This document shows, piece by piece, positions 8,508 to 34,470 of a DNA stretch of 34,470 nucleotides (position 1 is its first letter; the number at the start of each line of letters is the position of its first letter). Below the pieces are notes generated by a model. The model was not told where the DNA came from. It made no database searches and saw only the letters and a list, made by a program, of their open reading frames with translations. The translations under genes and the position numbers were made by a program. Origin of the DNA: a virus; the IMG/VR virus record IMGVR_UViG_3300033149_006333, positions 1-34,470 of that record; one strand, written 5' to 3'.

Positions 8508-8513
8508 TATAAT
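8508..8513 (+). promoter_or_regulatory. -10 box for a leaderless epimerase message
   Basis: TATAAT (8508-8513) lies seven bases before the ATG at 8521, so transcription would start at or next to the start codon. A weak -35 (TTGCAG, 8484-8489, 18-base spacer) lies in the terminator hairpin. There is no ribosome site before 8521. Confidence 0.5.
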
Positions 8514-8520
8514 GGCTGAG

Positions 8521-17835: not shown

Positions 17836-18280
17836 ACTTTGGCCAAAGCTCAAAGAGGTTGGAGAGAAGCTACTTTCTCTTCTCGAGCGTTTCTTTGATA
17901 TCCTGGATGAACACTGGCCTGCGATTGAAAAGTTAATTGACAAACTAATTGATAAATGGGTGCAAGGGCTAGAAGACCAGATCAAAGTCCTAGACTTAGC
18001 CCTTGACTGGTACGAATTAACTGGGCATTGGCCTTCGATCGTGATCCCATTCCAGCATGGTGGCATTGTCACCCGCCCGACCCTAGCCTGGCTCGGCGAA
18101 GCAGGCCCCGAGGCAGTCATCCCGCTCACCGGTTTCAATTATCCGCGCCTTGGCCTGGCCGCGGCAGGAGCGCACATCTCGATTGAGATTTCAGGCCGCC
18201 TAGTTGGAGACGGGCGTGAGCTGGTCGGAGTGATCGAGCGCGTGCAAGTGCGAGATGAGATCGTGAGGGGTAAGAGATGA
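17813..18280 (+). CDS. Tape measure protein, C-terminal frame
   Basis: This frame carries VWPFIKDRLWPKL, which continues the preceding helical pattern, and ends with HGGIVTRPTLAWLGEAGPEAVIPL. That is the standard C-terminal block of many tape measure proteins. It is one base out of step with the central frame. Removing one A from the AAA at about 17803-17805 would join them. The GTG at 17813 has no ribosome site. The end overlaps the hub gene start by ATGA at 18277. Confidence 0.75.
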   Translation: MWPFIKDRLWPKLKEVGEKLLSLLERFFDILDEHWPAIEKLIDKLIDKWVQGLEDQIKVLDLALDWYELTGHWPSIVIPFQHGGIVTRPTLAWLGEAGPEAVIPLTGFNYPRLGLAAAGAHISIEISGRLVGDGRELVGVIERVQVRDEIVRGKR

Positions 18281-20007: not shown

Positions 20008-20012
20008 ATCTC

Positions 20013-20040
20013 TTGAACTGGCGCTCCTTAATGTTATCTT
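20013..20040 (+). promoter_or_regulatory. Promoter for the fibre genes, TTGAAC-16-TATCTT
   Basis: TTGAAC (20013-20018) and TATCTT (20035-20040) are 16 bases apart. The fibre ATG at 20050 lies nine bases beyond the -10 box and has no ribosome site, which again suggests a leaderless message. Confidence 0.45.
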
Positions 20041-20049
20041 AGACTCGAA

Positions 20050-22323: not shown

Positions 22324-24472
22324 AGCAATCGGAGTCCATTTAAAAGACTGGCACATCGTCCAGGGAGTCCGCACCGGAAACTCCCCTTGGTCCCCCATCG
22401 CAATCGCTCAAGTGCCGGTCAAGGAACCGGCTCCATCCGCTCCCATAATCGAGTCAGTAACTGCCCCCGAAGCCTCGGCGGGCGTCTTGGAGATCAAAGT
22501 CGGCCTGCCGGAAACGAATGCCGATGGTACAGTTTTAGCCAGGGCGGAACTGGTCAGGCTCAGGCTGCACCATTCGACCAGCCCGGGCGTGGACGAGTCC
22601 GATCCCTACGTCGATTTTCCGCCGTCAGAGACCCTGCTTTGGGCCCCGAACGACACTGTCACGCACTACGTGCGCGTGCGCATCCAGGACTCGCATGGAC
22701 TGTGGTCCGAGCTTTCGAACGAGGCGTCCGGCCAAGCTAATGCAGCTACGGTGCCTCAAGAGGATTCGGGTCTGTGGGCCCACCGGCTCGGGGTCGAATC
22801 GATCTTCACGAACGATTCGCCAGATCCTGGCTACGTGTCCTGGTCAAACGTAGTGCTTTACTGGAAGGACAATAAGTACGAGATAGCCGACGGGAGCACT
22901 AACAAGAAGTACATCTGGTGGGATTATTCAGTTTCTATGACAACCTTCCAGACTTCCGACACGCGGCCCGAGCTGGACCTTGAGGACGTGATCATCGGCT
23001 ACAACGACAACGGAACCTGGCGGCTCATGTGCTACCAGCCTACGGTCATGGCGGACTACGTGAGGGCGGGGGTCCTGCAAAGCTCAAACTGGGGTACGTC
23101 CGAAGGATCCCAATTCAACCTGGATGATGGAACTTTCAAGCTGGGCGGCTCTTCAAATCCCAAGCTATCTTGGGACGGTGCTACTCTATCTATCCAGGGC
23201 TATTTGGCTGGAGAAACTTTGGACGATATTCCGGACGGGACCACCTACGGTCGTGTCCTCAAAACCGACATCTCGGCCGGCCACATCATCCTGTCCGCTT
23301 GCGAAGGGGACCTGGACGACATCGCGGACGGGACCACCTACAAAAAGACTACCGCGAACGAAAAGGAAGGGGCCAGCCGGGCTTACAGCGGGCTTGACTC
23401 CTCGGGCCGCCTCGTTACCGCGGTGCTTCCATCCACTCCCGTTAGCACGCCTGGCACTTCGGGACTTTACTTGGGATCGGATTATCTCGGCTATTTCGAC
23501 GGCTCCTCATGGAAAACCTACATGGACAACACCGGCAAGTTCTACCTCGATGGCACCAACGGGTATCTGCACTGGGATCCGGGCACCGATAGCCTGTCTA
23601 TCAAAGGTTCCCTGACTCTCGTTAGCGGGTCAGGGATCGCTAACTTCGCCGATGCAGGTGCCTTGGCGACCTTGGATGTGGTGGGTACGGCTCAGATCGA
23701 GGACTTAGCAGTTACAACGGCTAAGATCGATGACTTGGCAGTGACCGGGGCCAAGATAGCCGATGCCACCATCACTGACGCTAAAATAGCCAGCCTGAGC
23801 GCGGATAAGATTACAACGGGCACTCTGGATGCGAGCGTGGTTAACGTCATAAATTTAAATGCGGATAATATCACAACTGGAAAGCTTAATGGCTACTATA
23901 TCGAAACCAACAGCATATTGGCAGACAGGCTGAATGTATCTCAGCTATCAGCCATCTCAGCGGATCTGGGCACAGTGACTGCGGGACAAATCTCTGTCGC
24001 GGGTGGTTTAGTCAAGATCGGGACTGATGTTTACGGCACATCGGACGGTATTTATGTAGGGGCCGGCGGAACAATTATCGTGGAGGACTCTGCTGGTTCA
24101 GTCGTTTTTGATGCCAGCAGCATATTCCAAGGGGCGAGACTGATCGCCGCAGGTAATAGCTCTGGGACAAGTGCGATCGAGACAGTAAAAACGTGGTCTA
24201 GCGTAACTGTCCCCTCCGGGAAAAAGTGGATAGCAGTTGCTCAAACTAACTATCCGTACTATCTTGGGGACGATCTTAATATAGGAGTTCTAGACAAAAT
24301 TTCAATAGCTACTATGGCGTATTTCGATCCTGGCAGCAACCCCCTTCCTGCTGGAACTTACAGTGACTTGTCAGTGAAGGTCTTTGCATCTCTGGAATTA
24401 CAAAGAGATGATGGGACAACTTTTATTGACAATGTACAATGTGTATGGTTTGTGTGGGAGGTGCCAGCATGA
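22313..24472 (+). CDS. Tail tip/fibre protein with fibronectin-like and repeat region
   Basis: This 719-residue protein begins with a fibronectin type III-like section (APSAPIIESVTAPEASAGVLEIKV, then VRVRIQDSHGLWSELSNEASG) similar to the C-terminal parts of central tail fibres. Later it has WDGATLSIQG and repeated collagen-like-free beta units: IEDLAVTTAKIDDLAVTGAKIADATITDAKIASLS, then DKITTGTLDA and DNITTGKLNG. These are typical trimeric shaft repeats of tail tip proteins. The last 130 residues form a distinct beta domain. It is likely part of the tail tip with the fibre encoded upstream. Confidence 0.65.
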   Translation: MADKAIGVHLKDWHIVQGVRTGNSPWSPIAIAQVPVKEPAPSAPIIESVTAPEASAGVLEIKVGLPETNADGTVLARAELVRLRLHHSTSPGVDESDPYVDFPPSETLLWAPNDTVTHYVRVRIQDSHGLWSELSNEASGQANAATVPQEDSGLWAHRLGVESIFTNDSPDPGYVSWSNVVLYWKDNKYEIADGSTNKKYIWWDYSVSMTTFQTSDTRPELDLEDVIIGYNDNGTWRLMCYQPTVMADYVRAGVLQSSNWGTSEGSQFNLDDGTFKLGGSSNPKLSWDGATLSIQGYLAGETLDDIPDGTTYGRVLKTDISAGHIILSACEGDLDDIADGTTYKKTTANEKEGASRAYSGLDSSGRLVTAVLPSTPVSTPGTSGLYLGSDYLGYFDGSSWKTYMDNTGKFYLDGTNGYLHWDPGTDSLSIKGSLTLVSGSGIANFADAGALATLDVVGTAQIEDLAVTTAKIDDLAVTGAKIADATITDAKIASLSADKITTGTLDASVVNVINLNADNITTGKLNGYYIETNSILADRLNVSQLSAISADLGTVTAGQISVAGGLVKIGTDVYGTSDGIYVGAGGTIIVEDSAGSVVFDASSIFQGARLIAAGNSSGTSAIETVKTWSSVTVPSGKKWIAVAQTNYPYYLGDDLNIGVLDKISIATMAYFDPGSNPLPAGTYSDLSVKVFASLELQRDDGTTFIDNVQCVWFVWEVPA

Positions 24473-24927
24473 GTATAGTTGTTTTCTTTGACCAGAAAAC
24501 AGGAGAAATCCTAAAAATCGAACCCCACCCTGAATGGGGTGAGCGTGAAGTTCGGCTACGCCATCTCCAAAAGCATCCTCTTGCTACTGAGAAGGGAACT
24601 GGAGTCCTCGCTCTTCCTGACGACTTTTCCTGGGGAGACAGAGGACCTGAAAGCTGGCGAGTCGTTCTAGACAAGAGAGGATTGCCCCAGCTAGTTCCAC
24701 GCGAAGATAGAGAAGCCGAATCGGAGATTGAAGCTTTGAAGGAGATTTTCCTTTTGGAATCGATCATGAACAAACTCTCTCCGCTAGCAACAGGAAAGGC
24801 TGAGAAGCGCCTACAGGAACTCAAGGGACTTCAAGACTCAAAAAACTTCGCAAAGAAGGCCAGCCAGGAGGAGGCGTCCACATGCTGTCAATCAGGAGGG
24901 GATACAGAGCTCCCATCCACTGGCTGA
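24469..24927 (+). CDS. Hypothetical protein closing the tail operon
   Basis: I start at the ATG at 24469, which overlaps the fibre stop by ATGA and follows GGGAGGTG. The 152-residue product has a beta-rich first part (SIVVFFDQKTGEILKIEPHPEWGE) and a helical middle (EIEALKEIFLLESIMNKLSP). The tail after about residue 120 may be only read-through, because it overlaps the opposite gene by 107 bases and contains an A6 run at 24839-24844. A small tail-fibre-associated role is likely from position. Family not recognised. Confidence 0.5.
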   Translation: MSIVVFFDQKTGEILKIEPHPEWGEREVRLRHLQKHPLATEKGTGVLALPDDFSWGDRGPESWRVVLDKRGLPQLVPREDREAESEIEALKEIFLLESIMNKLSPLATGKAEKRLQELKGLQDSKNFAKKASQEEASTCCQSGGDTELPSTG

Positions 24928-25318
24928 TCGGAAGCGCTTCGATTGCTCTGATCTGACTTTCCGTTAGGTAGGGCTCGAAGAATTTCGGATTTACGTTGTA
25001 AATGAAAAGGAACCAGGGCCCAAGCGCCCGGAACTGCAATACGTGTGTCAGCTCGTGGGCAGTCACGTAATCCTCAAGATCGGGATCGAGCCCCCAACAA
25101 ACTACTGCGATATTGCCTAGGGCGAAGCCGTTTACGGCTTGTCCAGCAAACCATGAAGCAGTCTCGAAATCAGTTCTTACCAGGAAAACTGGGTCCAAGT
25201 TGATTTCAAGATCACCGTCATAGCAAAATGCAAGGTCGACATGATGAACTTGAACCGATGAGCCAGCCAAGGCCAAGGCAGCCAAGACAGCAAGCTGAAC
25301 ACAACTCCACCAGCTCAT
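24821..25318 (-). CDS. Secreted HExxH metallopeptidase-like protein
   Basis: The ATG at 25318 follows CTGGAGGTGG. The 165-residue protein starts with a signal peptide (hydrophobic residues 5-18, AxS-like cleavage region near 20-23). It has AHELTHVLQFRALGPW with HELTH at 88-92, an HExxH zinc site. A Glu or His downstream could be the third ligand. It should work in the periplasm or outside the cell. It follows the holin-like gene on the same strand, so it may take part in lysis in place of a typical endolysin, or it may be host-modifying cargo. The zinc motif and signal are plain; the substrate is not known. Confidence 0.6.
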   Translation of the reverse strand: MSWWSCVQLAVLAALALAGSSVQVHHVDLAFCYDGDLEINLDPVFLVRTDFETASWFAGQAVNGFALGNIAVVCWGLDPDLEDYVTAHELTHVLQFRALGPWFLFIYNVNPKFFEPYLTESQIRAIEALPISQWMGALYPLLIDSMWTPPPGWPSLRSFLSLEVP

Positions 25319-25336
25319 GGTCCACCTCCAGTAATA

Positions 25337-25392
25337 AGGGAGGGCCAGGCTCCATCGCTTCTAGGTCACCTCCTTCTAGCCTGGCCCTCCCT
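25337..25392 (-). promoter_or_regulatory. 15-bp perfect inverted repeat with a ribosome site in its loop
   Basis: AGGGAGGGCCAGGCT (25337-25351) and AGCCTGGCCCTCCCT (25378-25392) pair perfectly around a 26-base loop. On the minus strand the loop carries AAGGAGGTGA, a full anti-16S match. The element fills the gap between the holin-like stop and the peptidase start at 25318. No strong U-tract follows. It may control the balance of the two products. Confidence 0.55.
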
Positions 25393-25398
25393 CCTTGC

Positions 25399-25680
25399 CT
25401 ACTGCTCCCGTTTCTTGGTCAGCGGGTACCAGGCTGATGCGGTCGCGAAAATCGTGGTCCATGCGGCGGTTATGGCCTCAAGGCATTTGAGCGGATCGGT
25501 GATGTCGAACTCGAGCCCCGCGAATCCGCCGGTGATGAGGTTGTATCCGACCGCGACCAGGAGCGAGACTATGATGATGCCCCATGCCGCGCTGACATCC
25601 GAGAGCTTCAAGCTCCGCTTGATAGCCTCATAGATCCAACGCAGCACAGTGCCGATTACTATGCCAAAGCCGACGTCCAT
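25399..25680 (-). CDS. Holin-like membrane protein
   Basis: This 93-residue protein has about three hydrophobic spans (residues 3-19, 31-50, 67-86), a short amphipathic link and a basic C-terminus (PLTKKREQ). That is the pattern of phage holins. A good ribosome site (GAGGAGGTGACAG) precedes the ATG at 25680. It sits between the beta-barrel-like gene and the secreted peptidase gene on the same strand. A role in timed membrane permeabilisation is inferred from topology and context, as holins have little sequence conservation. Confidence 0.6.
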   Translation of the reverse strand: MDVGFGIVIGTVLRWIYEAIKRSLKLSDVSAAWGIIIVSLLVAVGYNLITGGFAGLEFDITDPLKCLEAITAAWTTIFATASAWYPLTKKREQ

Positions 25681-25705
25681 CTGTCACCTCCTCTAACTGA
25701 GATTG

Positions 25706-26161
25706 TCAAAGAGCCGGCGCCGGTGCCCAGAAAGCGTCCAGGTACAATCTGGCTCCGACGGACAATGACGGGGCACCGAAAGGCTCGTCTTCCTCGATGA
25801 CGCCGAAGTAAGACAGTTTTCCAAAGACATCAAAGCTTCCCATTGAGCCCAGGACTAGGAAGTATGGGCCCCAGGCGGAATCCGACATTTTCCAGTCGTC
25901 CCATTCGATGGACAAAAGGACTCCGGCTCCGAAACTAATATTTGGGAGTCCGGCGATCCGCACAGCCGCCTCGCCTCCGAAGGCCCACCAGCCCGCGAGG
26001 GTCTGAGGCATCCACTTCAGCAAGTAGACCGTGACGCCGTAGTTCGAGACGCCGATTTCAAAGCCCAGTCCCTCGTCAGCGGCTTCGATGCCCGCGAAGG
26101 GCGAAGCGATCGCGCCACTGGCCAAGGCTAGCAGGGCCGCCACCACAAAGACAGTTCGCAT
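25706..26161 (-). CDS. Secreted beta-barrel-like (outer membrane type) protein
   Basis: The start at 26161 follows GAGGAGGTGG. Residues 1-19 are a clear signal peptide ending in an AIAS-type cleavage site. The rest (about 130 residues) shows alternating hydrophobic strands rich in Gly, Tyr, Trp and Phe (GFEIGVSNYGVTVYLLKW, ISFGAGVLLSIEW, YFGVIEEDEPFG, SLSVGARLYLD). This suggests an outer-membrane barrel of about eight strands. Phages that carry such genes often use them to alter the host surface or block superinfection. The host is then probably diderm. The strand pattern is seen; the function is inferred. Confidence 0.5.
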   Translation of the reverse strand: MRTVFVVAALLALASGAIASPFAGIEAADEGLGFEIGVSNYGVTVYLLKWMPQTLAGWWAFGGEAAVRIAGLPNISFGAGVLLSIEWDDWKMSDSAWGPYFLVLGSMGSFDVFGKLSYFGVIEEDEPFGAPSLSVGARLYLDAFWAPAPAL

Positions 26162-26179
26162 GAGCCACCTCCTCTTTAT

Positions 26180-26452
26180 TCACTGGAATTTCTGTTCCCG
26201 TTCGCTTCTTGTCAAGCTCTTCTCCGGAACTTCCAAGCCCTTGAGCTGGAAGTTCTCAAAGATAGGTCTTACCGATGCAAGATCTATATTCACCTCCTTC
26301 CTTTTAAGAGTGTCTTTCACTACGGAGCTGATTTGCCCTCCAAGGGCATCTCGTTCCTGGATTAGGCGATTGATCTCTCGCTGGAGCAACTCCAGTCTGA
26401 GATACATCGCCTCCAACTTCACCCGCTTTTCCTCTTCAAGTCTGATTAACAT
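26180..26452 (-). CDS. Coiled-coil protein starting right after the tRNA-like element
   Basis: The ATG at 26452 gives a 90-residue helical protein (RLEEEKRVKLEAMYLRLELL, then EINRLIQERDALGGQ) with a coiled-coil N-terminal half and a charged C-terminus. No Cys, membrane or signal segment is present. There is no ribosome site; the start codon is six bases past the last base-paired residue of the tRNA-like RNA. A longer frame upstream would read through that RNA and is unlikely. It is the first gene of the terminal group with the barrel-like, holin-like and peptidase genes. Function unknown. Confidence 0.45.
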   Translation of the reverse strand: MLIRLEEEKRVKLEAMYLRLELLQREINRLIQERDALGGQISSVVKDTLKRKEVNIDLASVRPIFENFQLKGLEVPEKSLTRSEREQKFQ

Positions 26453-26762
26453 AACTAGCCAGGGATCGGGGACTCGAACCCCGAGGTCGGTCCCCCCCGC
26501 GTAAGGAGGGTGAAACCGCGGAGGCATCGGGACTTCCTGCCCTACTCCCTGCACCATGCTCCCTGGCCGGGGCCCCTTTAAACCACTTCCCTCTAAAGAG
26601 AGTCGCTCGCTGGGGTTCGGACGGGTTTCTCAGCCGACCTGGCGCGCTCGGTACTTCTGGGTTCCTGACCCCGGGCGGCTCGCTCCTCCTCTGTGGGTTT
26701 CTTACCTGTGAATGGCTCATCTTAAGTTTCCTCATCCGGTAGCCTTCTTTGCTATGGTACAT
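26436..26762 (-). CDS. Doubtful ORF with a three-fold 12-residue repeat
   Basis: An ATG at 26762 overlaps the stop of the gene at 26752 and opens 108 residues. Its first half contains three spaced RNP units (VRNPQRRSEPPG, VRNPEVPSAPGR, LRNPSEPQRATL). The second half runs through the tRNA-like RNA, which argues against it as a real C-terminus. It may be a short repeat protein, or the repeats may be non-coding. No family is recognised. It is listed because 26567-26751 has no other gene. Confidence 0.2.
   Translation of the reverse strand: MYHSKEGYRMRKLKMSHSQVRNPQRRSEPPGVRNPEVPSAPGRLRNPSEPQRATLFRGKWFKGAPAREHGAGSRAGSPDASAVSPSLRGGDRPRGSSPRSLASYVNQT
26459..26566 (-). ncRNA. tRNA-like RNA with a 13-bp acceptor/T-arm stack and an odd anticodon arm
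   Basis: On the minus strand CCAGGGA (26566-26560) pairs perfectly with TCCCTGG (26465-26459). The T-arm is a 6-bp TCGGGG/CCCCGA stem around TTCGAGT. A D-arm-like GGGA/TCCC stem and an 8-bp CCTCCGCG/CGCGGGGG stem (one G-U pair) with a 15-base loop fill the middle, so a cloverleaf of 108 bases forms with no normal 7-base anticodon loop. CCA is not encoded. It shares a GGGC(A)GGAAG block with the RNA at 1716-1922. The fold is by eye. A decayed tRNA is the alternative. Confidence 0.45.
26623..26730. repeat. Three degenerate direct repeats with a 36-bp period
   Basis: GGGTTYCT occurs at 26623, 26659 and 26695, exactly 36 bp apart, with partly conserved flanks (for example GCTCG-type blocks in between). 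On the minus strand the units read AGRAACCC. The period is a whole number of codons. They could be a coding repeat or iteron-like protein-binding sites. Confidence 0.55.
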
Positions 26763-27135
26763 CCCGGCTCCAGAGGCTGTCAAGGCCCAGGAGCGCGCGC
26801 AGCTCCCGGGCTTCACGCCTCGTGAACCGGCTCTTGCGCGGATCCAACGGCTTGCCCAAGAGCGCCACCAATCGTTCACGTCCAAGCGTCTTCACCGCCT
26901 GCCTGTACGCCTGCTTGAGCAGTATCCGCTCGATTTCCCGAGGGAGCCGGGCTTGCACCGCCGCTCGGGCCTGATCCGCCTCCGCTCTCAGCTGTACCTC
27001 TCCCTGCCATGCTAACTCTTCTTCCAGGCTCTGAGGCGGGCGGCAAGCAAACCTCTCGTTTGCTCGCCTTCGCTCTCTTTCCACATCGGGAGCTAGGAGA
27101 AGCGCTAGCAATCGGAGTTCGTCTTGCCTTCGCAT
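26752..27135 (-). CDS. Hypothetical Arg/Leu-rich helical protein
   Basis: This 127-residue protein is very rich in Arg, Leu, Glu and Ala and is predicted mainly helical (RLLALLLAPDVERERRRANE, EADQARAAVQARLPREIERI, FTRREARELRALLGL). It has a single Cys. The ATG at 27135 lies inside the end of the upstream gene, with only a weak ribosome site (AAGGCAAG). Its high GC and Arg content differ from the neighbouring genes. A role in DNA or protein binding is possible. Family not recognised. Confidence 0.5.
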   Translation of the reverse strand: MRRQDELRLLALLLAPDVERERRRANERFACRPPQSLEEELAWQGEVQLRAEADQARAAVQARLPREIERILLKQAYRQAVKTLGRERLVALLGKPLDPRKSRFTRREARELRALLGLDSLWSRDVP

Positions 27136-27407
27136 GGCTCTAGCTTGCCTTTTAGAACTCCGGCAAAAGAAAATGCTACATCGATGTGGCTAACTGCACT
27201 GGCGTATATGATCGGCTTTCCTTTCTCATCGAGAGCCCAAATCTTGAGGCGGAGAGTCGGTTGCTTTCCCCATTGACTGACCAGTTCGATTCTTTCGACG
27301 TCTTCTAAAGGCTTTCCATCGATAAGGATTTCTGATTCGTAAAGGCCTTGAAACCTGATCTCCAGATCCGCCGGCGGCTGGATCTTGTATACTTCCTCAA
27401 GTTTCAT
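27105..27407 (-). CDS. Hypothetical beta-rich 100-residue protein
   Basis: The ATG at 27407 follows AAGGAGGTGACTG and overlaps the upstream stop (TGATG). The product has alternating strands (LEIRFQGLYESEILIDGKPL, RIELVSQWG, LRLKIWALDEKGKPIIYAS) and two Cys residues near the C-terminus. There is no membrane segment or known motif. It is part of the overlapping minus-strand chain. Function unknown. Confidence 0.55.
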   Translation of the reverse strand: MKLEEVYKIQPPADLEIRFQGLYESEILIDGKPLEDVERIELVSQWGKQPTLRLKIWALDEKGKPIIYASAVSHIDVAFSFAGVLKGKLEPCEGKTNSDC

Positions 27408-27760
27408 CAGTCACCTCCTTGCGCAAGCTGAGTCAGTTTAACCGCGCACTCTTTACAAAGCTTAGTTGGCCTTCCGCGCTCATCCTTGACCAGTTCATCC
27501 GGACCGCATCTCCTTCCACAGATTTTGCATCGCTTGAATCTCCTTTTCTCCATCCTGCACCGCGGACAGTACTTCGCTCGGACGCGGCGAGTTCTAAAGA
27601 CGGTCCCGCAGTTCTCGCAGACCTTGCGAAAGGCAGGGACCTGACCTGCTTTCGCCACCAGTTGATGCGCTCGCTGCCTTGACACCCCCAGTAGCTCGCC
27701 GATTTCCCGATAAGTCAGGCCCTTTAGCCGTAGCTTAAGAGCCAGCTTGCTCTTTCTCAT
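27407..27760 (-). CDS. HTH and double zinc-ribbon DNA-binding protein
   Basis: This 117-residue protein has an N-terminal helix-turn-helix of sigma-region-4 type (LRLKGLTYREIGELLGVSRQRAHQLV, about 10-35). It is followed by a zinc ribbon with C48-x2-C51 and C65-x2-C68, and a second with C78-x2-C81 and C102-x2-C105. Basic residues fill the spaces. Such small phage proteins act as transcription regulators or bind single-strand nucleic acid. It overlaps both neighbours (27735-27760 and 27407). It is a candidate controller of the operon or of the switch to late genes. Confidence 0.65.
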   Translation of the reverse strand: MRKSKLALKLRLKGLTYREIGELLGVSRQRAHQLVAKAGQVPAFRKVCENCGTVFRTRRVRAKYCPRCRMEKRRFKRCKICGRRCGPDELVKDERGRPTKLCKECAVKLTQLAQGGD

Positions 27761-27896
27761 AGAGCCGCTCCTTCAAGGCCTGCCGGGCGAGTTCCTTGAA
27801 AGCTCTGCTTCGCTTTCCAGGAGGCTGGGCCTCGAGAAACAGGATCAAGTCTTGGTCTTCTTTCTCTGACAGGTAGATCGGACATACCCTCATCAT
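27735..27896 (-). CDS. Small ribbon-helix-helix-like regulator (53 residues)
   Basis: The ATG at 27896 follows AAAGGAGAAG. The product has one short strand (VCPIYLSEKED) and two helices (DLILFLEAQPPG and RAFKELARQALKERLYEKE), which is the layout of ribbon-helix-helix DNA-binding proteins found in phages and plasmids. It would dimerise and bind an operator. It overlaps the HNH gene stop by four bases and the downstream HTH-zinc gene start by 26 bases. Confidence 0.5.
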   Translation of the reverse strand: MMRVCPIYLSEKEDQDLILFLEAQPPGKRSRAFKELARQALKERLYEKEQAGS

Positions 27897-28741
27897 AACT
27901 TCTCCTTTCGGACGCCCCGCACCAGCGAACCGCCTTTCAAGACCCAAGCTCCAGGCGGCACCTCTTCTTCCCACTTGCCTTGAGGATCGATCTCCACCTG
28001 CCTGATCTCGCCGGTCCCGATCCAGCCCCTGCGCTTCCTGGCCTTTCTGAGTTCGGCTTCGACCCAGCGCCAAAACTCGGGCGGCGGGACTGAGCTTGCG
28101 ATGTCCAGGATCTCCTTGGCCCGGTCGGGATGCCTGCGGGCCAGGTCCACCACTTCAAAAGGCAGGTGCTGGACATCTTCGATTTCATGTTCTTTCACGA
28201 AGCGCACGCACCGGATCATGCGCTTGACCTCCGCACTTGTATAACCAAGGTCGGCTCCGAAATCATAAATGTCTGCGCATGACCCCGTTGTGGCTGTGGA
28301 AAGGAGATGATCGGCTTGATGAAGCTCATAGAGAGCGGCGGCTAGGGCCCAAAGGTTAGCCCGAGCTTGAATAGACTGGAGCATCGCCATGTTCATCGTG
28401 TCTCTGACTAGTGAAATCATTCGCTTCCCATAGTACCACAGCCGATCCTTAGGCACCGGCTTGCCTCGACAGGAAACGACTTCCAAGCCATCGGGATCGC
28501 CAGGGACCCAGCGCGTGATCTTGTAGGCACCTCTGCCATGGAGCTTCATGTGGCAAACATGGCAGACAAGGATCAGGTTGTCAGGCTGGTTGAGGGGCGA
28601 GTCGGGCGAGTCCCCGCCCATGCCCTGGTGCCGGATGTGAGCTATCTCGGTTGCTGGGACTGGCTCTGTGTGGAAGAGCTGGCATTCGCCGGCGTCCCTT
28701 TCCCAGACCGCTCGCCTGACTTCCTCAGAGATCGCCATCAT
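27893..28741 (-). CDS. HNH endonuclease with a long C-terminal helical domain
   Basis: The start at 28741 (ATG ATG) follows GGGAGGAG. Residues 8-68 hold an HNH site: RRAVWERDAGEC, EIAHIRHQGMGG, then NLILVCHVCHMKLHG with the His and zinc-binding Cys residues. The remaining 200 residues are mostly helical, with DFGADLGYTSAEVKRMIRCVRF looking like an HTH. It may be a homing-type nuclease or a phage-specific nuclease acting on host or invading DNA. It is longer than the common 100-130 residue phage HNH proteins. It overlaps both neighbours, so it is an integral part of the operon and not a fresh insertion. Confidence 0.7.
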   Translation of the reverse strand: MMAISEEVRRAVWERDAGECQLFHTEPVPATEIAHIRHQGMGGDSPDSPLNQPDNLILVCHVCHMKLHGRGAYKITRWVPGDPDGLEVVSCRGKPVPKDRLWYYGKRMISLVRDTMNMAMLQSIQARANLWALAAALYELHQADHLLSTATTGSCADIYDFGADLGYTSAEVKRMIRCVRFVKEHEIEDVQHLPFEVVDLARRHPDRAKEILDIASSVPPPEFWRWVEAELRKARKRRGWIGTGEIRQVEIDPQGKWEEEVPPGAWVLKGGSLVRGVRKEKL

Positions 28742-29123
28742 TCTCCTCCCTAGGAGCTAAGCCTAATGCCTCTCGCAAAGCTCGCTTCGCTTTCACTCGC
28801 AGCTCTGCGCATCGTTTGTCTCGTTTTGCGGGCACGTCAGCCATGCCTTCCGTCAAAGCCTCCAACGCTAACTGAGCTGCTGCTTCCAGCTTGCTGAGAT
28901 GGTCCAAGAGTTCCCGCGCCAACTCAGTCAGCCAGGGCACGTCCTCGCGGGCAGACGCCATAAATTCTGCTGTTTCCCTGGTCGGAAACGGCCGAGGGCG
29001 ATCTGAGCCTGGAAGCATAACATGCCATCCGTTAAGACTGTGGTATACAGACCATGGCCCCGGTGTCGCCTTTCCTGCTCGCGCCTCGATCTCCTTAAGA
29101 CGCCTTTGAATTTCTTCATTCAT
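28725..29123 (-). CDS. Ea22/Ead-like phage protein (copy 2)
   Basis: The ATG at 29123 follows TGGAGGTGG. The 132-residue protein has RRLKEIEARAGKATPGPW at the N-terminus and FMASAREDVPWLTELARELL in the middle, the same two blocks as the gene at 7609. A C-terminal helical extension (EAAAQLALEALTEG) follows. Ea22-like proteins are common in early regions of phages and have no firmly known role. The two copies differ clearly outside the blocks, so the duplication is old or the genes were acquired separately. Confidence 0.65.
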   Translation of the reverse strand: MNEEIQRRLKEIEARAGKATPGPWSVYHSLNGWHVMLPGSDRPRPFPTRETAEFMASAREDVPWLTELARELLDHLSKLEAAAQLALEALTEGMADVPAKRDKRCAELRVKAKRALREALGLAPREENDGDL

Positions 29124-29487
29124 TGTCCACCTCCATCACAACCAAGAGGGCGGCGCGGCAGATAGCGAGAGGGGCCGTAGATGCAAGGGCCCTGTATATC
29201 TTAGTGGCACTGCCAAAGTCAGCCAACCATTGAATTCTCGTGGTGTCCAACACGTCCATATAGCTAGCCAAATTAAAACTGTATTTCGACACAAGCTTGA
29301 TCACTACCTCCCACGCCGCCGCGATGTCGGTGGAAGGTCTGAAGTCTTCTTGCCATCCTTGGGAATGACCTTGAGCATCAAACCATTCCCGCCAGTCCTC
29401 ATCCAGTCTCCACCTCATCACCTGCTCAGCCACCAGCCGGTCCAATTCCGGACCAGCCTCAAACTGCAAGATTTCTTCACGAGTCAT
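29116..29487 (-). CDS. Phage ABA-sandwich domain protein
   Basis: This 123-residue protein shows AGPELDRLVAEQVMRW near the N-terminus, STDIAAAWEVVIKL in the middle and ASTAPLAICRAALLV near the end. This is the conserved pattern of small phage proteins with the ABA sandwich fold (BC1872-like). Their function is not established. It overlaps the DUF669-region gene by 11 bases and the Ea22-like gene by eight. The 5' context has a moderate ribosome site (GAGGGAGAGG). Confidence 0.65.
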   Translation of the reverse strand: MTREEILQFEAGPELDRLVAEQVMRWRLDEDWREWFDAQGHSQGWQEDFRPSTDIAAAWEVVIKLVSKYSFNLASYMDVLDTTRIQWLADFGSATKIYRALASTAPLAICRAALLVVMEVDNE

Positions 29488-29752
29488 CTCGCCTCTCCCT
29501 CATTATCAGGCCACGCTGCCGAGCTTCTCTCACATACGCCTCATGGTCTAATGCTTCTAGGGCGTCGTTCCCGTACAGCCACTCCATATCAGCATCCACA
29601 TCTTCAGCCAAGGGGCCCGTCATTACGCCCCAACATACAAGCACGCCTTCGCGGGCCAACCGCCTATGCCTGCGGATGATGTTCATTAAGTGGCGATCAC
29701 TTAGTTTTGTCAGCGGGATGGCTTTTCCATCTCTTGTAACGTGTACTTTCAT
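29477..29752 (-). CDS. Internal start: separate 91-residue protein inside the DUF669 frame
   Basis: An ATG at 29752 has the same GAAGGAGGCAGC spacing that other genes in this operon use. The product starts MKVHVTRDGKAIPLTKLSDRH, continues with LMNIIRRHRRLAREG and ends with ALEALDHEAYVREARQRGL, a pattern I associate with small stand-alone phage early proteins of unknown role. It is in the same frame as the DUF669-like sequence, so both a fusion and a free form could be made. Confidence 0.5.
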   Translation of the reverse strand: MKVHVTRDGKAIPLTKLSDRHLMNIIRRHRRLAREGVLVCWGVMTGPLAEDVDADMEWLYGNDALEALDHEAYVREARQRGLIMRERRDDS

Positions 29753-30103
29753 GCTGCCTCCTTCGCCCCTATGGGTTTCTTGTTCTCCAGGCCCGCGCTC
29801 CATTCCTTCAAAACGGCGGATCAAGGTGTTGGCCACATCGCCGGGACTTTCGAAATGAGTGTCTTCCGGCATGCCCAACGCCTTGAGCGCCAGACAGGCC
29901 CGAAAGATGCCCCGGTCGGTCACCACGAAGTTGTCGATTATGCGCGATCCGACATAATCGCCTTCGGTGACTTCCCAGGTGACCTTGATCATCGGCGAAC
30001 CCGAAGCAGCTTCCGTCTTCGTCCAATCGGCCATCACGACCGGATACTCTCCCTCTGGCAGCATCGCTCCCCGCTCCAGTTTTTCTTTCAAGGTGAAGCC
30101 CAT
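29477..30103 (-). CDS. DUF669-like ssDNA-binding region fused in frame to a second phage protein
   Basis: The ATG at 30103 overlaps the ATPase stop (TGATG) and follows AAAGGAGGCG. Residues 1 to about 95 (EGEYPVVMADWTKTEAASGSPMIKVTWEV, then VTDRGIFRACLALKALGM) match the first part of DUF669 proteins, which are single-strand DNA-binding partners of phage recombinases. The expected C-terminal strands are short or missing. After a Gly/Glu-rich link the frame runs with no stop into a second domain (MKVHVTRDGKAIPLTKLSD onward), which has its own ribosome site. Either a true fusion or two genes that lost a stop. 208 residues in all. Confidence 0.55.
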   Translation of the reverse strand: MGFTLKEKLERGAMLPEGEYPVVMADWTKTEAASGSPMIKVTWEVTEGDYVGSRIIDNFVVTDRGIFRACLALKALGMPEDTHFESPGDVANTLIRRFEGMERGPGEQETHRGEGGSMKVHVTRDGKAIPLTKLSDRHLMNIIRRHRRLAREGVLVCWGVMTGPLAEDVDADMEWLYGNDALEALDHEAYVREARQRGLIMRERRDDS

Positions 30104-30864
30104 CACTCGCCTCCTTTCTTTGAAGACTTCTTCTCTTTAAACAGAGCTTGGATAGCCTGGAAGGTCGGCGGGCACGAACCTGCGGCGGCCAGTATTGGAT
30201 GCCTGGACCCTGCCTCAATCGCAGGCCCGGGATTGAACACGAACTGGCGCTCGACGCCACCTCCCGGGAGCTCTTCCGCTTGGAGGTACATGGCGTGGCT
30301 CACCACGGCCATGACTGCCCTTCCAAGCTTGCCAGGCAGGTCGAGGATCTTGGCGCCCATGCTAAACTCGGGGTTGAAAGATGCGGTATGGGCTACTAGG
30401 ACCAAGTGAGTCGGGAAGGCTTGGAATTCCCGGATCAAGTTCAAGACTGCGTCCCTGTGAGCTGCAAAGTCCGCGCCGTAGACCCCGGCTTCCCCGAGTT
30501 GGGTCGCTCCGAACTTGTGGGCGATCTCCTGTTCCAGCCATGAAGCGATCACGTCGATGGTGTCGAGCACGATGGTTTTCCAGGGGAAGTCTCCTTTCTG
30601 CTCGGCGTCTTTCAGCTCCCTGTACACATTGCGCAACTGGGCCAAGGCCCGGGCCCAACCGGGCTTGCCGTTTTTCGAGCGGGAGTCTATCTCCACGATG
30701 TAGCCTTCGATGTAGTCCGCTCCCCCAGGTTCGCATTCGATGATAAGGGGCTCGGGCCAGGTCGCGGCGCTCGTCGTTTTCCCGCACTTGGGCGGACCGT
30801 ACACGAGCCAGGTCGCTTGCTCAGGAAACTCGAGCTTCGGCTTCCTTTTCTCTCTAGGCAACAT
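30103..30864 (-). CDS. RecA-like/Sak4-like single-strand annealing ATPase
   Basis: I use the ATG at 30864 after GAAGGAGGCGGG; the longer upstream frame has no family match. The 253-residue protein has a Walker A GPPKCGKT (23-30) and a Walker B-like TIVLDTID (97-104). It also has ASFNPEFSMGAKILDLPGKL, common in phage AAA_24/Sak4-type ATPases. These proteins promote strand annealing and exchange with a DUF669-type ssDNA-binding protein, encoded directly downstream, and often with an exonuclease, encoded upstream at 31702. This is a phage recombination and replication repair module. Confidence 0.75.
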   Translation of the reverse strand: MLPREKRKPKLEFPEQATWLVYGPPKCGKTTSAATWPEPLIIECEPGGADYIEGYIVEIDSRSKNGKPGWARALAQLRNVYRELKDAEQKGDFPWKTIVLDTIDVIASWLEQEIAHKFGATQLGEAGVYGADFAAHRDAVLNLIREFQAFPTHLVLVAHTASFNPEFSMGAKILDLPGKLGRAVMAVVSHAMYLQAEELPGGGVERQFVFNPGPAIEAGSRHPILAAAGSCPPTFQAIQALFKEKKSSKKGGE

Positions 30865-31177
30865 TTCCCGCCTCCTTCCGCGCTTCGTAGAATAGGTCCT
30901 GAGCCACCACAGGATAGTCTGAAAGGCCATCGCAGTAGCGGCACTCGATCTCCACTAGCCCGACTTCGCCTTGCGGGTCCAGATAGCCAAGCACTCTCGC
31001 AACAGCGGCGAGCAGCTCCTTGAGCTTGGCTACTACTTCCTGCTTATCACCGTCGGTGTAACCCCGTAAGACGACTTCATTTGTCCAGTCCTTTCCGATG
31101 AGCTGGATCTCCACCTTCCCTTTCCAGAGTTCCGCCTTGACCTTTTCAATCTCCGCAAGATCAATCGCAAGATCCAT
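30854..31177 (-). CDS. Hypothetical 107-residue protein
   Basis: The ATG at 31177 follows GAAAGGAGGCAG, one of the strongest ribosome sites here. The product is helical at the start (DLAIDLAEIEKVKAELWKGK), then beta (VEIQLIGKDWTNEVVL), then helical (EVVAKLKELLAAVARVLGYL), with two Cys (CRYC) near the C-terminus. The first residues resemble those of the gene at 31291 (AIDLEAIYEV), so the two may be distant paralogues. It overlaps the ATPase start by 11 bases. Function unknown. Confidence 0.55.
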   Translation of the reverse strand: MDLAIDLAEIEKVKAELWKGKVEIQLIGKDWTNEVVLRGYTDGDKQEVVAKLKELLAAVARVLGYLDPQGEVGLVEIECRYCDGLSDYPVVAQDLFYEARKEAGNVA

Positions 31178-31307
31178 CCTGCCTCCTTTCACTCTCCTTG
31201 AAAGGGCTGCCAGCTCCGTATCTTCTCTCCCATTCTTCCGCAATCTCGGTCGCACGTTGAATTGCATCGTCAATTGCAGAACGCAACTTCTCAAGCTTTT
31301 CCGCCAC
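31161..31307 (-). CDS. Small helical protein (48 residues)
   Basis: A GTG at 31307 lies inside the end of the gene at 31291, with AAGG-rich bases upstream. The frame encodes MAEKLEKLRSAIDDAIQRAT and then EIAEEWERRYGAG, an amphipathic charged helix, and ends at 31161 within the start of the next gene. It bridges the 113-base gap between two genes in an otherwise gap-free operon, which supports it. Function unknown. Confidence 0.45.
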   Translation of the reverse strand: MAEKLEKLRSAIDDAIQRATEIAEEWERRYGAGSPFKESERRQDGSCD

Positions 31308-31494
31308 CCTTGCCTTCCATTTCTGGGGGGACCTTAGGATCGAGCCACGTCATCTCTTTGCTTGGGAGGGAGGTTTGGAGCTTGAAGGACCATTCCAACG
31401 CTTCCCAGCCGCCCAGAACGTGAATTTTCAGTCGCTCGTCTTCGATTTTCGTTTCGACCTCATAAATCGCCTCAAGGTCGATTGCAGTCTTCAT
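31291..31494 (-). CDS. Hypothetical 67-residue protein
   Basis: The ATG at 31494 follows GGAGGCGAA. The product begins MKTAIDLEAIYEVETKIEDE, with a beta-type middle (LKIHVLGGWEALEWSFKL) and a Gly/Lys tail. It resembles the start of the 31177 protein in the AIDL and IEx pattern. No catalytic motif is seen. It overlaps the upstream zinc-ribbon gene by four bases. Confidence 0.5.
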   Translation of the reverse strand: MKTAIDLEAIYEVETKIEDERLKIHVLGGWEALEWSFKLQTSLPSKEMTWLDPKVPPEMEGKGGGKA

Positions 31495-31721
31495 TTCGCC
31501 TCCCAGTCCAGAACCTCAGGATAAGAATCAAGGACCGCGTATCTCCGGGTCTTGACATGCACTCGCATGCCCAGCCGTTTCTCGCATTTCTGGCAAGTCG
31601 TCTTGAAATATCCATCGCGATCGGAGGGATAGATGACCTCATTGTCGGCTCCGCAAACCGGACAGGTGAAATAGAGATACACGGTCTCGACCTCTCTTTC
31701 CTCAAATCCGTTCTGCTTCAT
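31491..31721 (-). CDS. Zinc-ribbon protein (76 residues)
   Basis: The ATG at 31721 follows GGAAAGGAGGCGGG. The product has FTCPVCGADNE and, after a loop, FKTTCQKCEKRLGM: two CxxC pairs that form a zinc ribbon. It is followed by a beta segment (RVHVKTRRYAVLDSY). Such proteins are frequent in phage early operons as small nucleic acid or protein binding factors. It overlaps the nuclease gene end by 20 bases. Confidence 0.6.
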   Translation of the reverse strand: MKQNGFEEREVETVYLYFTCPVCGADNEVIYPSDRDGYFKTTCQKCEKRLGMRVHVKTRRYAVLDSYPEVLDWEAK

Positions 31722-32541
31722 CCCGCCTCCTTTCCAGTTTCCGGAACCCGAGGGCCTCGGCCCGGCTCGAGTCATCGCAGATCAGTTCGTAAGGACAAGG
31801 CCAGGCCAGGCAGGCCCCGGGGTTCCTGTAGATTCGTCCTTCCTCGATCTCTTGGACCAGAACCGCCACGCGCTCGAGCGCGCGCCGGACACGATCCTCG
31901 GTCAAGACTACCGGGAACTGCACGATGTACTTCTCTTTGTTTTTCCCGAGTTCTCCTCCCCACCTCCTTCTAAACTGAACTGGACTTTCGCTCTTTCGTC
32001 CCCTGAGCGAGGTGCTCAAGGCTACCCATGCTGTCTGGATCTCTTCACCAGGCCACAGGTCTATCGCCGCGGCCTGATACAGAGCGAGTTGATCGTCAAG
32101 CTCTCGCATCCGATCGCAATTGGGGACTCTGGACACGGTTTTCCAGTCGAGGATGAGGATGTAGTCATCCCGCTTGAGTACAAGATCTAGCACCCCGACA
32201 AACTGGAACCGGACCCCATTCACATCCCACTTGAGGCCAAAGCGATTCTCGATCCCCAGGATCTCGCCTTCCGGGATCTCAGTCGCCTCGACTAGTGGCA
32301 AAGCTTTGGCAGCGATCCAGCGCCTCCGATCTGGTGCAAGTGTGGAGTCAGTTATGACTTGAACAGTTGCCAGCTCTGTGTCCTCTCCCTTAGCTTTAGC
32401 GGCCAGGCCGGCATGGACGGCCCGGCCCAGCACGAGCGGTTCGGGATCCTCAGGCGGGAGCCAGCCTTCCCTGTACCTAAGCTCCCACCTACGGCGGCAT
32501 TGAGCGAACTCAGTCAGCTCCGAATAACTTACTTTGAGCAT
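31702..32541 (-). CDS. Cas4/RecB-like PD-(D/E)XK nuclease with Fe-S cysteines
   Basis: The start at 32541 follows GGAGGCTCAGTC. The 279-residue protein has SELTEFAQCRRRW at the N-terminus, GVLDL (Asp 119), ILDWKT (DWK 132-134) and QLALYQ (151-156), the catalytic core and QxxxY motif of RecB/Cas4 nucleases. Cysteines at 15, 244, 249 and 255 are spaced as a 4Fe-4S ligand set as in Cas4 and AddB. It should cut or resect DNA with Mg. Together with the Sak4-like ATPase and DUF669 protein it forms a recombination set. No CRISPR array is nearby. Confidence 0.8.
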   Translation of the reverse strand: MLKVSYSELTEFAQCRRRWELRYREGWLPPEDPEPLVLGRAVHAGLAAKAKGEDTELATVQVITDSTLAPDRRRWIAAKALPLVEATEIPEGEILGIENRFGLKWDVNGVRFQFVGVLDLVLKRDDYILILDWKTVSRVPNCDRMRELDDQLALYQAAAIDLWPGEEIQTAWVALSTSLRGRKSESPVQFRRRWGGELGKNKEKYIVQFPVVLTEDRVRRALERVAVLVQEIEEGRIYRNPGACLAWPCPYELICDDSSRAEALGFRKLERRRDEAERI

Positions 32542-32678
32542 GACTGAGCCTCCAGATACTCAGCTTGCTTACGGCACCAATGTGTCTTAGTCCAAGTGTC
32601 ACAAGCCTTGCAGTAACACCAATCATGATCCATCTCTTTCACTTCAGCACCGCACCTCGGGCAGATCAGCTTCTTCAT
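32529..32678 (-). CDS. Zinc-ribbon mini-protein, first gene of the minus operon
   Basis: The ATG at 32678 follows AAGGAGGCAGGG. The 49-residue product has KLICPRCGAEV and then WCYCKACDTW, two CxxC pairs that make a zinc ribbon, and a further CRK and CSK near the end. It overlaps the nuclease start. As the promoter-proximal gene it should be made early and in quantity. A small DNA- or RNA-polymerase-binding role is possible but not shown. Confidence 0.6.
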   Translation of the reverse strand: MKKLICPRCGAEVKEMDHDWCYCKACDTWTKTHWCRKQAEYLEAQSCSK

Positions 32679-32700
32679 CTCCCTGCCTCCTTGTACCTAT

Positions 32701-32729
32701 AATATACACCTAGTGCTGTCCTTTGTCAA
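32701..32729 (-). promoter_or_regulatory. Strong early promoter, TTGACA-17-TATATT
   Basis: On the minus strand a perfect TTGACA (32729-32724), a 17-base spacer and TATATT (32706-32701) lie 23 bases before the first start codon of the minus operon. It would drive the whole chain down to 24821. Confidence 0.8.
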
Positions 32730-32737
32730 GAGCGGAG

Positions 32738-32765
32738 GGACAAATGTCCCTGTGGACATTTGTCC
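32738..32765. promoter_or_regulatory. Paired operator-like dyads GGACA-NN-TGTCC
   Basis: GGACAAATGTCC (32738-32749) and its reverse complement GGACATTTGTCC (32754-32765) are separated by CTGT. Each is itself a dyad with 5-bp arms. The pair lies eight bases upstream of the minus promoter -35 box, in the divergent control region, and looks like two dimer sites for a repressor or activator. Confidence 0.6.
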
Positions 32766-32823
32766 GGGAATCCGGCTCCGCACTACCTCGACGGGAACGG
32801 TTCTGACTCAAAGGAAGGAAAGC

Positions 32824-32852
32824 GCAAGGCCTAGCCGAGCGCTAGGCCTTGC
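32824..32852. promoter_or_regulatory. 29-bp inverted repeat overlapping the forward -35 box
   Basis: GCAAGGCCTAGC (32824-32835) and GCTAGGCCTTGC (32841-32852) are perfect 12-bp arms around CGAGC. The second arm overlaps the -35 box at 32849-32854. It may be an operator that blocks polymerase, or an RNA hairpin for transcripts that cross it. No U-tract follows. Confidence 0.55.
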
Positions 32853-32877
32853 CACTTCACCGGGGCAGCTTTATAAT
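32849..32877 (+). promoter_or_regulatory. Forward promoter TTGCCA-17-TATAAT for the replication gene
   Basis: TTGCCA (32849-32854), a 17-base spacer and perfect TATAAT (32872-32877) lie 20 bases upstream of the leader ATG at 32897. Transcription should start near 32884, so the message begins just before the leader's ribosome site. Confidence 0.75.
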
Positions 32878-32896
32878 GCCCTCAGGAGGTGATGCC

Positions 32897-32950
32897 ATGA
32901 AGAAGTATATCACAGAGAAGACGGAGAGGCAAGAGGAAAGGGCTCCTTAG
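32897..32950 (+). CDS. 17-residue leader peptide overlapping a terminator
   Basis: The ATG at 32897 has a near-perfect ribosome site (AGGAGGTGAT, about five bases upstream). The product is MKKYITEKTERQEERAP, with no obvious run of one regulatory codon. Its last six codons cover the whole 5' arm of the terminator hairpin, and its stop codon lies between the loop and the 3' arm. The message then continues to the primase-helicase. A cis-acting leader is more likely than a free-acting peptide. Confidence 0.6.
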   Translation: MKKYITEKTERQEERAP

Positions 32951-32970
32951 CCCTTTCCTCCTTTTATTTT
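32933..32970 (+). terminator. Intrinsic terminator inside the leader ORF
   Basis: GAGGAAAGGGCT (32933-32944) and AGCCCTTTCCTC (32949-32960) form a perfect 12-bp stem with loop CCTT, followed by CTTTTATTTT (32961-32970). It lies between the forward promoter and the primase-helicase gene, so some way of reading through is needed. Confidence 0.85.
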
Positions 32971-32997
32971 GCTAGCCAACTTAAGAAAGGAGGACCT

Positions 32998-34470
32998 GTG
33001 ACGAGCATCGAGGGTTTCCTTTCCCGCTTGGAGGGTGTTAAAAGAGTTTCAAATGAGTCCTGGATGGCCCTATGCCCGGCGCATGACGACAAGAATCCTT
33101 CCCTCTCTATCCAGCTTGCAGATGACCGCATCTTGATTCATTGCTTCGCCGGTTGCTCTCCTCAGACTATTGTCCGAGCTCTGGGGCTCGAGATGAAGGA
33201 CCTCTTTCTCAAGGAGGAAGAACCGTTTGAGACGGGGCCTGGCGTCCTCCAGGCCGCTTACGTCTACCGAGACGAATATGGCAACTCCTTGTACAGAGTC
33301 CTGCGATATTACGTTCCCGGAGAAAAGAGAAAGACTTTCCGACAACAAGCCTACGACCCTAAGACAGGAACCTGGAGAGGAGGCCAAGGAGCCTTGAGCC
33401 AAGTCCGGCGCGTGCTTTATCGCTTGCCGGAACTCATCAAGGCGGATCGTGAAGAACCGGTCTGGCTGTGTGAAGGAGAAAAGGACGTCGATCATCTACG
33501 CTCATACGGCCTGGTGGCAACCACAAACATGGGAGGAGCCAAGGCCTGGCGGGCCGACTATAACAGGTTTTTCGTCGGACGGACAGTTTACATCCTGAAA
33601 GACAACGATCCTAATGGCGAGCAGAGGTGCATTCAGCTAGCTGAACATTTGGAAGGGATAGCAGACACGATCAAGATAATCGACTTGCCTGGCCTTGGTC
33701 CTAAAGAAGATGTGTCCGATTGGCTTTTACGAGGCCATGATATTGAAGAGCTCCTAGACATCGCAAAGAATACTCCAGCTTACGAGCCGAAAACCTCACC
33801 GGTTTTGAAGGGCGAGGCTGGCCTGTTCACCTTGGAATGGCCAGACTTAGGGATACAGGCCGAAGCCGAGGTTCTCTCCGAGTCTTATGGGGACTTTTAT
33901 ATCCTTCTGTCTATCTATGCGCTCGGGAAGAAAATCCTTCCTCCGACAAAGGTTAATATCCTGTCCCTTTCGACTCGAGCGCGGCTAGCGAAAGGGTTGG
34001 AGGAAAAGCATGCCTTCGGGACGTGGGATGCGATCATAGACAACCTGGCAACTCGCATCCTGAACCAGCGAACGGAAGCAGAGCCTCTCGCGGTTATAAC
34101 TGCCACCAGCCAATACCAAGACACACAATACTTGGTACGCCCGCTTTTACCAGTCGGTCTTCCCACTATTGTCTATGGCGATGGGGAGAGCGGGAAAACC
34201 TTGACTTCTATTCTGCTCGGCATTCTCGTCTCAACAGGGAAGAGCCTTCCCGGGCTTGGACTCAGAGTACAGCGTCAAGGCCCTATTCTCTACCTCGATT
34301 ATGAGGGAAACCAGGATGTCTTCACTCGCAGGCTGGTGTTTTTGAGCCGTGGCCTGGGAACCGAGCCCGTTATCCACTACCTTCGCTGTTCTATTCCTCT
34401 AGCGCAAGATTTTAAGCGCATAGCAAAACACGTCTTAGAAGTCGACCCGGTTTTGATTATCGTCGATTCA
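32998..34470 (+). CDS. Primase-helicase (CHC2 zinc, TOPRIM and RepA-like ATPase), 3' partial
   Basis: The start is a GTG at 32998 after AAAGGAGG. The frame is open for 491 codons and runs off the right edge, so the C-terminal end is missing. Domains in order: a CHC2-type zinc finger (C26-x2-H29, HCFAGC with C49 and C53), a TOPRIM domain with CEGEKDVDHL (Glu 159) and LKDNDPNG (Asp 202, 204), and a RecA/RepA-like ATPase with Walker A GDGESGKT (394-401), a YLDYEG block and VLIIVDS as Walker B. It should make primers and unwind DNA for phage replication. It is transcribed away from the early operon from the 32849 promoter, behind the leader and terminator. Confidence 0.85.
   Translation, partial: MTSIEGFLSRLEGVKRVSNESWMALCPAHDDKNPSLSIQLADDRILIHCFAGCSPQTIVRALGLEMKDLFLKEEEPFETGPGVLQAAYVYRDEYGNSLYRVLRYYVPGEKRKTFRQQAYDPKTGTWRGGQGALSQVRRVLYRLPELIKADREEPVWLCEGEKDVDHLRSYGLVATTNMGGAKAWRADYNRFFVGRTVYILKDNDPNGEQRCIQLAEHLEGIADTIKIIDLPGLGPKEDVSDWLLRGHDIEELLDIAKNTPAYEPKTSPVLKGEAGLFTLEWPDLGIQAEAEVLSESYGDFYILLSIYALGKKILPPTKVNILSLSTRARLAKGLEEKHAFGTWDAIIDNLATRILNQRTEAEPLAVITATSQYQDTQYLVRPLLPVGLPTIVYGDGESGKTLTSILLGILVSTGKSLPGLGLRVQRQGPILYLDYEGNQDVFTRRLVFLSRGLGTEPVIHYLRCSIPLAQDFKRIAKHVLEVDPVLIIVDS

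Follow-up and report, generated by a model that had tools for sequence, protein, structure and literature searches.

At the right-hand end of a phage sequence (an IMG/VR virus record of 34,470 bases, analysed as a whole and called the window here), a short leader ORF overlaps an intrinsic terminator in front of a primase-helicase gene. The initial annotation proposed that translation of this leader keeps the terminator from folding and thereby gates transcription of the primase. The region comprises the following elements.

32824 to 32852, no strand assigned: upstream hairpin (GCAAGGCCTAGC..GCTAGGCCTTGC) of 12 perfect pairs, overlapping the -35 element
32849 to 32877, plus strand: promoter of the replication operon (TTGCCA-N17-TATAAT), an 11/12 match, near-invariant across seven cassettes
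32884 to 32893, plus strand: ribosome-binding site of the leader (AGGAGGTGAT), at the predicted 5' end of the RNA
32897 to 32950, plus strand: leader ORF of 17 codons (MKKYITEKTERQEERAP, then stop)
32904 to 32932, minus strand: candidate antisense promoter inside the leader ORF (TTGCCT-N17-TATACT), a 9/12 match with TG before the second hexamer
32933 to 32944 and 32949 to 32960 (stem), 32961 to 32970 (tail), plus strand: intrinsic terminator of 12 bp plus a T-rich tail
32986 to 32993, plus strand: ribosome-binding site of the primase (AAAGGAGG)
32998 to 34470, plus strand: primase-helicase gene with PHROG and Pfam matches, running off the end of the window

The product of the downstream gene matches the PHROG groups DNA primase (3.5e-34) and primase/helicase (5.3e-16) and the Pfam family AAA_25 (1e-14). 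The phage collection gave no DNA match at the leader, its primase relatives all fall below 60% identity, and plasmids gave no match. In species genomes, the closest primase relatives have about 44% identity over the primase domain, and 398 genomes of a single phylum yielded only partial primase matches (residues up to about 269). Elsewhere in the window, an ORF at 8512-9621, upstream of the tail genes, resembles UDP-N-acetylglucosamine 2-epimerases (about 33% identity). A stretch on the minus strand at 26448-26560 is tRNA-like, with an acceptor-type pairing (CCAGGGA/TCCCTGG) and a T-arm; it was not called by ARAGORN, has no Rfam match above the gathering score and folds no better than its shuffles.

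The near-consensus promoter described in the initial annotation is one of the two best matches in a consensus scan of positions 15000-34470; the other points leftward (32729-32701, 11/12). On the plus strand from 29958 to 32998 the scan found no further promoter-like site. As the only evident plus-strand promoter in this interval lies before the terminator, primase transcription must pass the terminator, a deduction from the consensus scan. The predicted rightward start (about 32884) is the first base of the leader Shine-Dalgarno (SD) sequence. The leftward promoter also leads directly into an SD and a small zinc-ribbon-like ORF (32701-32679, minus strand; MKKLICPRCGAEV...), so that an SD at the predicted start of the RNA seems to be a habit of this phage. 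Eleven further loci (L198-L200, L202-L207, L209 and L210) were either promoters that lead directly into an SD or chance matches, and by eye they appeared to have no overlapping terminator; an SD at the start is thus ordinary by itself.

Several palindromic sequences surround this promoter. Between the two divergent promoters lies an operator-pair-like double dyad (GGACAAATGTCC-CTGT-GGACATTTGTCC, 32738-32765), and similar sequence occurs upstream in L003 and L048, two of the related records described below. The upstream hairpin (32824-32852) is kept in seven cassettes (96.4% of cells paired, with two-sided changes in two pairs) and has a poor terminator score on both strands. Its loop reads CCGAGCG in the window and L003 and CGCTCGG in L002 and L048, an exact inversion, and the leftward similarity of L002 to the window stops near this hairpin. 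A dyad around the -10 hexamer (32862-32882 and counterparts) varies in sequence while its pairing stays: GGGC/GCCC in the window, L002 and L048, GGGAG/CTCCC in L003, L195 and L196, and GGGCG/CGCCC in L044.

The terminator has 12 perfect pairs, a loop at 32945-32948 and the tail CTTTTATTTT, and its 5' arm lies entirely within the leader ORF, as had been proposed. Perfect hairpins of at least 10 bp occur at only four places in the whole window, three of them within 32738-32960, and each of 20 dinucleotide shuffles of the whole window contained 0 or 1. Given this rarity, the stem is not a product of chance. A search of viral contigs recovered the same cassette in six other IMG/VR records (L002, L003, L048/L042, L044, L195 and L196), giving with the window a small set of seven loci from few samples. 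Primase identity to the window is 89% in L002, 79% in L003 and 73% in L048/L042 (best segment); L044, L195 and L196 have a helicase gene that lacks the primase half. In L048 from position 3001, the primase frame stops after 344 codons though similarity goes on, which suggests a frameshift in the phage or in the assembly. The cassette is absent from the more distant L047 (primase identity 56%), promoter-pattern matches in L190 and L045/L046 fall in unrelated sequence, and L191-L193 looked unrelated on inspection.

Across the seven aligned cassettes, 92.9% of the cells of the terminator stem are paired, and two-sided changes occur in 5 of the 12 pairs. None of 500 shuffles reached the observed covariation score or the percentage paired, and slid registers were at most about 70% paired. 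The reading frame after the stem differs between the short-leader and the long-gene forms, and stem and T-rich tail persist in both, which indicates that the hairpin is maintained as nucleic acid. A GC-rich hairpin with a T-rich tail separates the promoter from the first structural gene, and covariation at seven loci shows that it is conserved in homologues. Six of the seven cassettes have a positive terminator score, which is marginal in the window (2.1), where the tail starts with C; the score of L196 is negative. The L195 hairpin is missing from the scanner's list of terminator-like sites, probably as its tail can be absorbed into the stem. Rfam leader and attenuator families gave no match above the gathering score in the window or the six homologous loci.

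In the leader, the AGGAGG and GAT of the ribosome site are invariant in all seven cassettes, and in each of them a frame with this site runs over the 5' arm of the terminator, so a search of related phages for the ORF-terminator overlap, suggested in the initial annotation, found it in 7/7 and found no case in which the terminator was kept and the ORF lost. Where the frame ends is variable. The leader has 17 codons and a TAG at the loop in the window, L003 (MKKYTATGVGRQEGRTA, then stop) and L048 (MQKYITEKMERQEGRTA, then stop). L002 has a deletion of one base compared with L048, and its shifted frame, 28 codons long, crosses the terminator and ends at a TAA. The leader of L044, L195 and L196 forms the N-terminus of a longer protein (105-106 aa, no confident Pfam match), with the hairpin inside its gene. 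The stop codon had been placed at the loop; this is slightly loose, since only the first base of the TAG (32948-32950) belongs to the loop, as its last base, and the other two open the 3' arm. The position is kept in only 3/7 cassettes.

An open frame of 17 codons is unremarkable by itself (by our own arithmetic, (61/64)^17 = 0.44). Between the window and L048, the stretch from the hairpin arm to the ATG has 0 differences in 55 bp, and 14 of 31 four-fold sites differ in primase codons 1-69. The remarkable feature at the sequence level is the conserved SD plus start, rather than the length of the open frame. In leader codons 2-12, 7 of 33 bases differ between the window and L048, with four synonymous and two nonsynonymous codon changes; the comparison with L003 gives 0 synonymous and six nonsynonymous changes. 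Translation of the leader may therefore be under selection, and the peptide sequence is not clearly so. The leader contains no run of regulatory codons, its peptide is not conserved in L003 and its 5' hairpin is weak. It is also purine-rich, with only about 77 nt to the end of the stem.

On balance, and with moderate confidence, we read the cassette as a conserved promoter-proximal attenuator that holds back transcription of the phage replication operon. The polymerase would start at about 32884, with the ribosome site at the very 5' end of the leader RNA, and would make the terminator about 50-77 nt later (the stem ends about +77 from the predicted start). A fraction of the transcripts would end near 32968, at a length of about 85 nt, and the remainder would enter the primase-helicase gene. 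We infer activity of the terminator in vivo, translation of the leader, and both the sign and the size of the translation effect. A ribosome initiating on the leader early enough would sit over the 5' arm and increase read-through, though we expect only in part; an on/off response would need a polymerase pause to hold the complex. Translation probably modulates the attenuator at most partly. The attenuator and the rival explanations below can be true together, so the confidence placed in each overlaps with that in the others.

The rival that survives best, though we consider it doubtful, is that the candidate antisense promoter is the main cause of base conservation in the leader and that the ORF is kept only as a by-product or relic. 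This element faces the replication promoter, and transcripts running leftward from about 32897 would either hinder rightward initiation or supply the leftward operon. Its pattern, TTGC[CT][TG]-N17-TATACT, matches at 9/12 with constant spacing in 6/7 loci, and about 2.9 kb of primase, helicase and 105-aa-gene alignments (three alignments) contain no match common to all three homologues. Ten of the 12 hexamer columns are invariant, compared with 2 of the 17 spacer columns (Fisher p 0.0003, a post hoc value for a comparison devised after seeing the alignment), and the L002 deletion that breaks the leader frame falls outside the element. However, 9/12 is a weak match, L044 has only 8/12 (hand count), and the element was noticed after looking. 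The same columns can also be explained by invariant Tyr and Gln codons or by pairing of CAAGAG with the U tract, and stem constraints could mimic the element.

A strong translation gate, closer to what was first proposed, appears unlikely. Leader translation would then be the main switch, timed by a polymerase pause near +39, and the primase would be transcribed only with good ribosome loading. The frame over the 5' arm and the invariant ribosome site are consistent with it, and a weak GUGAU/AUCAC hairpin around the leader start codon (88.6% paired, one two-sided change) could support the pause; however, this hairpin is within shuffle range (76/500) and the pause is only hypothetical. We estimated the race between ribosome and polymerase with assumed rates, guided for initiation times by published work (PMC4824070). 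With initiation times of 1-2 s and no pause, 13-23% of rounds would have the ribosome in position; for a 2 s pause, the estimates of rounds with a ribosome on the arm in time are 56-74% and 56-87%. In an E. coli construct of nearly the same geometry as the window, with the terminator 30 bp past the AUG (W48), translation cut termination by only about 10%, and its authors concluded that ribosomes are unlikely to catch the polymerase in the first 100 bp without specific coupling, for example pausing (PMC4824070). Our estimate agrees with this small published effect unless the polymerase pauses. Coupling would be weaker still in a host with runaway transcription like that of B. subtilis, in which the polymerase outruns ribosomes (PMC9226507). 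Neither the stop position nor the peptide, as in L003, is conserved, and the fit of the antisense promoter offers another account of the conserved bases. Furthermore, when the 5' arm is blocked in the window RNA, the rest of the terminator (3' arm and tail) is predicted to pair with the primase SD, a pairing not clearly common to L002 and L048; sequestering the SD in this way could offset the gain in read-through and would counteract the gate. What stands of the proposed gate is a conserved terminator between promoter and primase with a translatable frame over its 5' arm in 7/7; its strong form is unsupported.

The least likely of the three rivals is that the 17-codon ORF is merely the truncated start of the sister phages' 105-106-aa gene, followed by an ordinary end-of-gene terminator with no regulatory purpose: the leader does align with the N-terminus of that protein, and some terminators elsewhere overlap the ends of upstream genes (PMC4824070), but the primase has no other promoter, so that a strong terminator here necessarily limits it, the stem covaries also inside the intact gene, and the ribosome site is still invariant after truncation.

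Known attenuators place the preferred reading, a promoter-proximal attenuator only partly modulated by translation, in context. In the growth-rate attenuator of E. coli ampC, ribosomes that load on a very short leader are proposed to keep the terminator from forming, tying output to ribosome supply; unlike the window, ampC has almost no leader peptide and is a host gene rather than a phage gene. The E. coli pyrBI leader resembles the window in having the terminator inside the leader frame, and a ribosome close behind the polymerase suppresses that terminator (PMC4824070). There, however, transcription pause sites give strict coupling (PMC4824070), whereas the window has a purine-rich leader and about 77 nt to the end of the stem. 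The msrD/MsrDL attenuator of macrolide resistance also has a short leader ORF before an intrinsic terminator, and when a ribosome sits on the stop codon of that leader, the terminator stem is obstructed and read-through is allowed (PMC10314930). That a ribosome stalled at this leader blocks the nearby terminator is experimentally established (PMC10314930). In msrDL a drug stalls the ribosome on MYLIFM, and the leader carries a NusG pause motif, TTNTTT (PMC10314930); the window shows no evident stall peptide or drug, its leader peptide lacks conservation, and what lies downstream is a phage primase gene. At isrK in the Gifsy-1 prophage, as would be the case in the window, some transcripts end at a nearby terminator and others continue into phage genes, but the short isrK RNA works in trans, affecting how the read-through mRNA is translated (PMC4825925). 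The initial annotation had regarded a gate of this kind on a phage primase as new to it; such novelty holds at most for phage primases, as the principle is known from pyrBI, ampC and msrDL.

A broader possibility, which we regard as quite improbable, is that the cassette works as a portable phage promoter unit: its translated start region, the terminator overlapping it and the convergent antisense promoter would act together to meter how much the replication genes are transcribed. Such a unit would serve as a leader or as the start of a gene, and commitment to replication would depend on ribosome supply.

The natural variants of the cassette (the 17-codon leader, the frameshifted leader and the full gene) constitute a ready-made comparison. 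If the attenuator works as we read it, transcription of the replication genes would be limited by a brake at the promoter, and not only by a repressor. Should translation shift this brake to any degree, the phage would have its replication coupled to the ribosome supply of the host.
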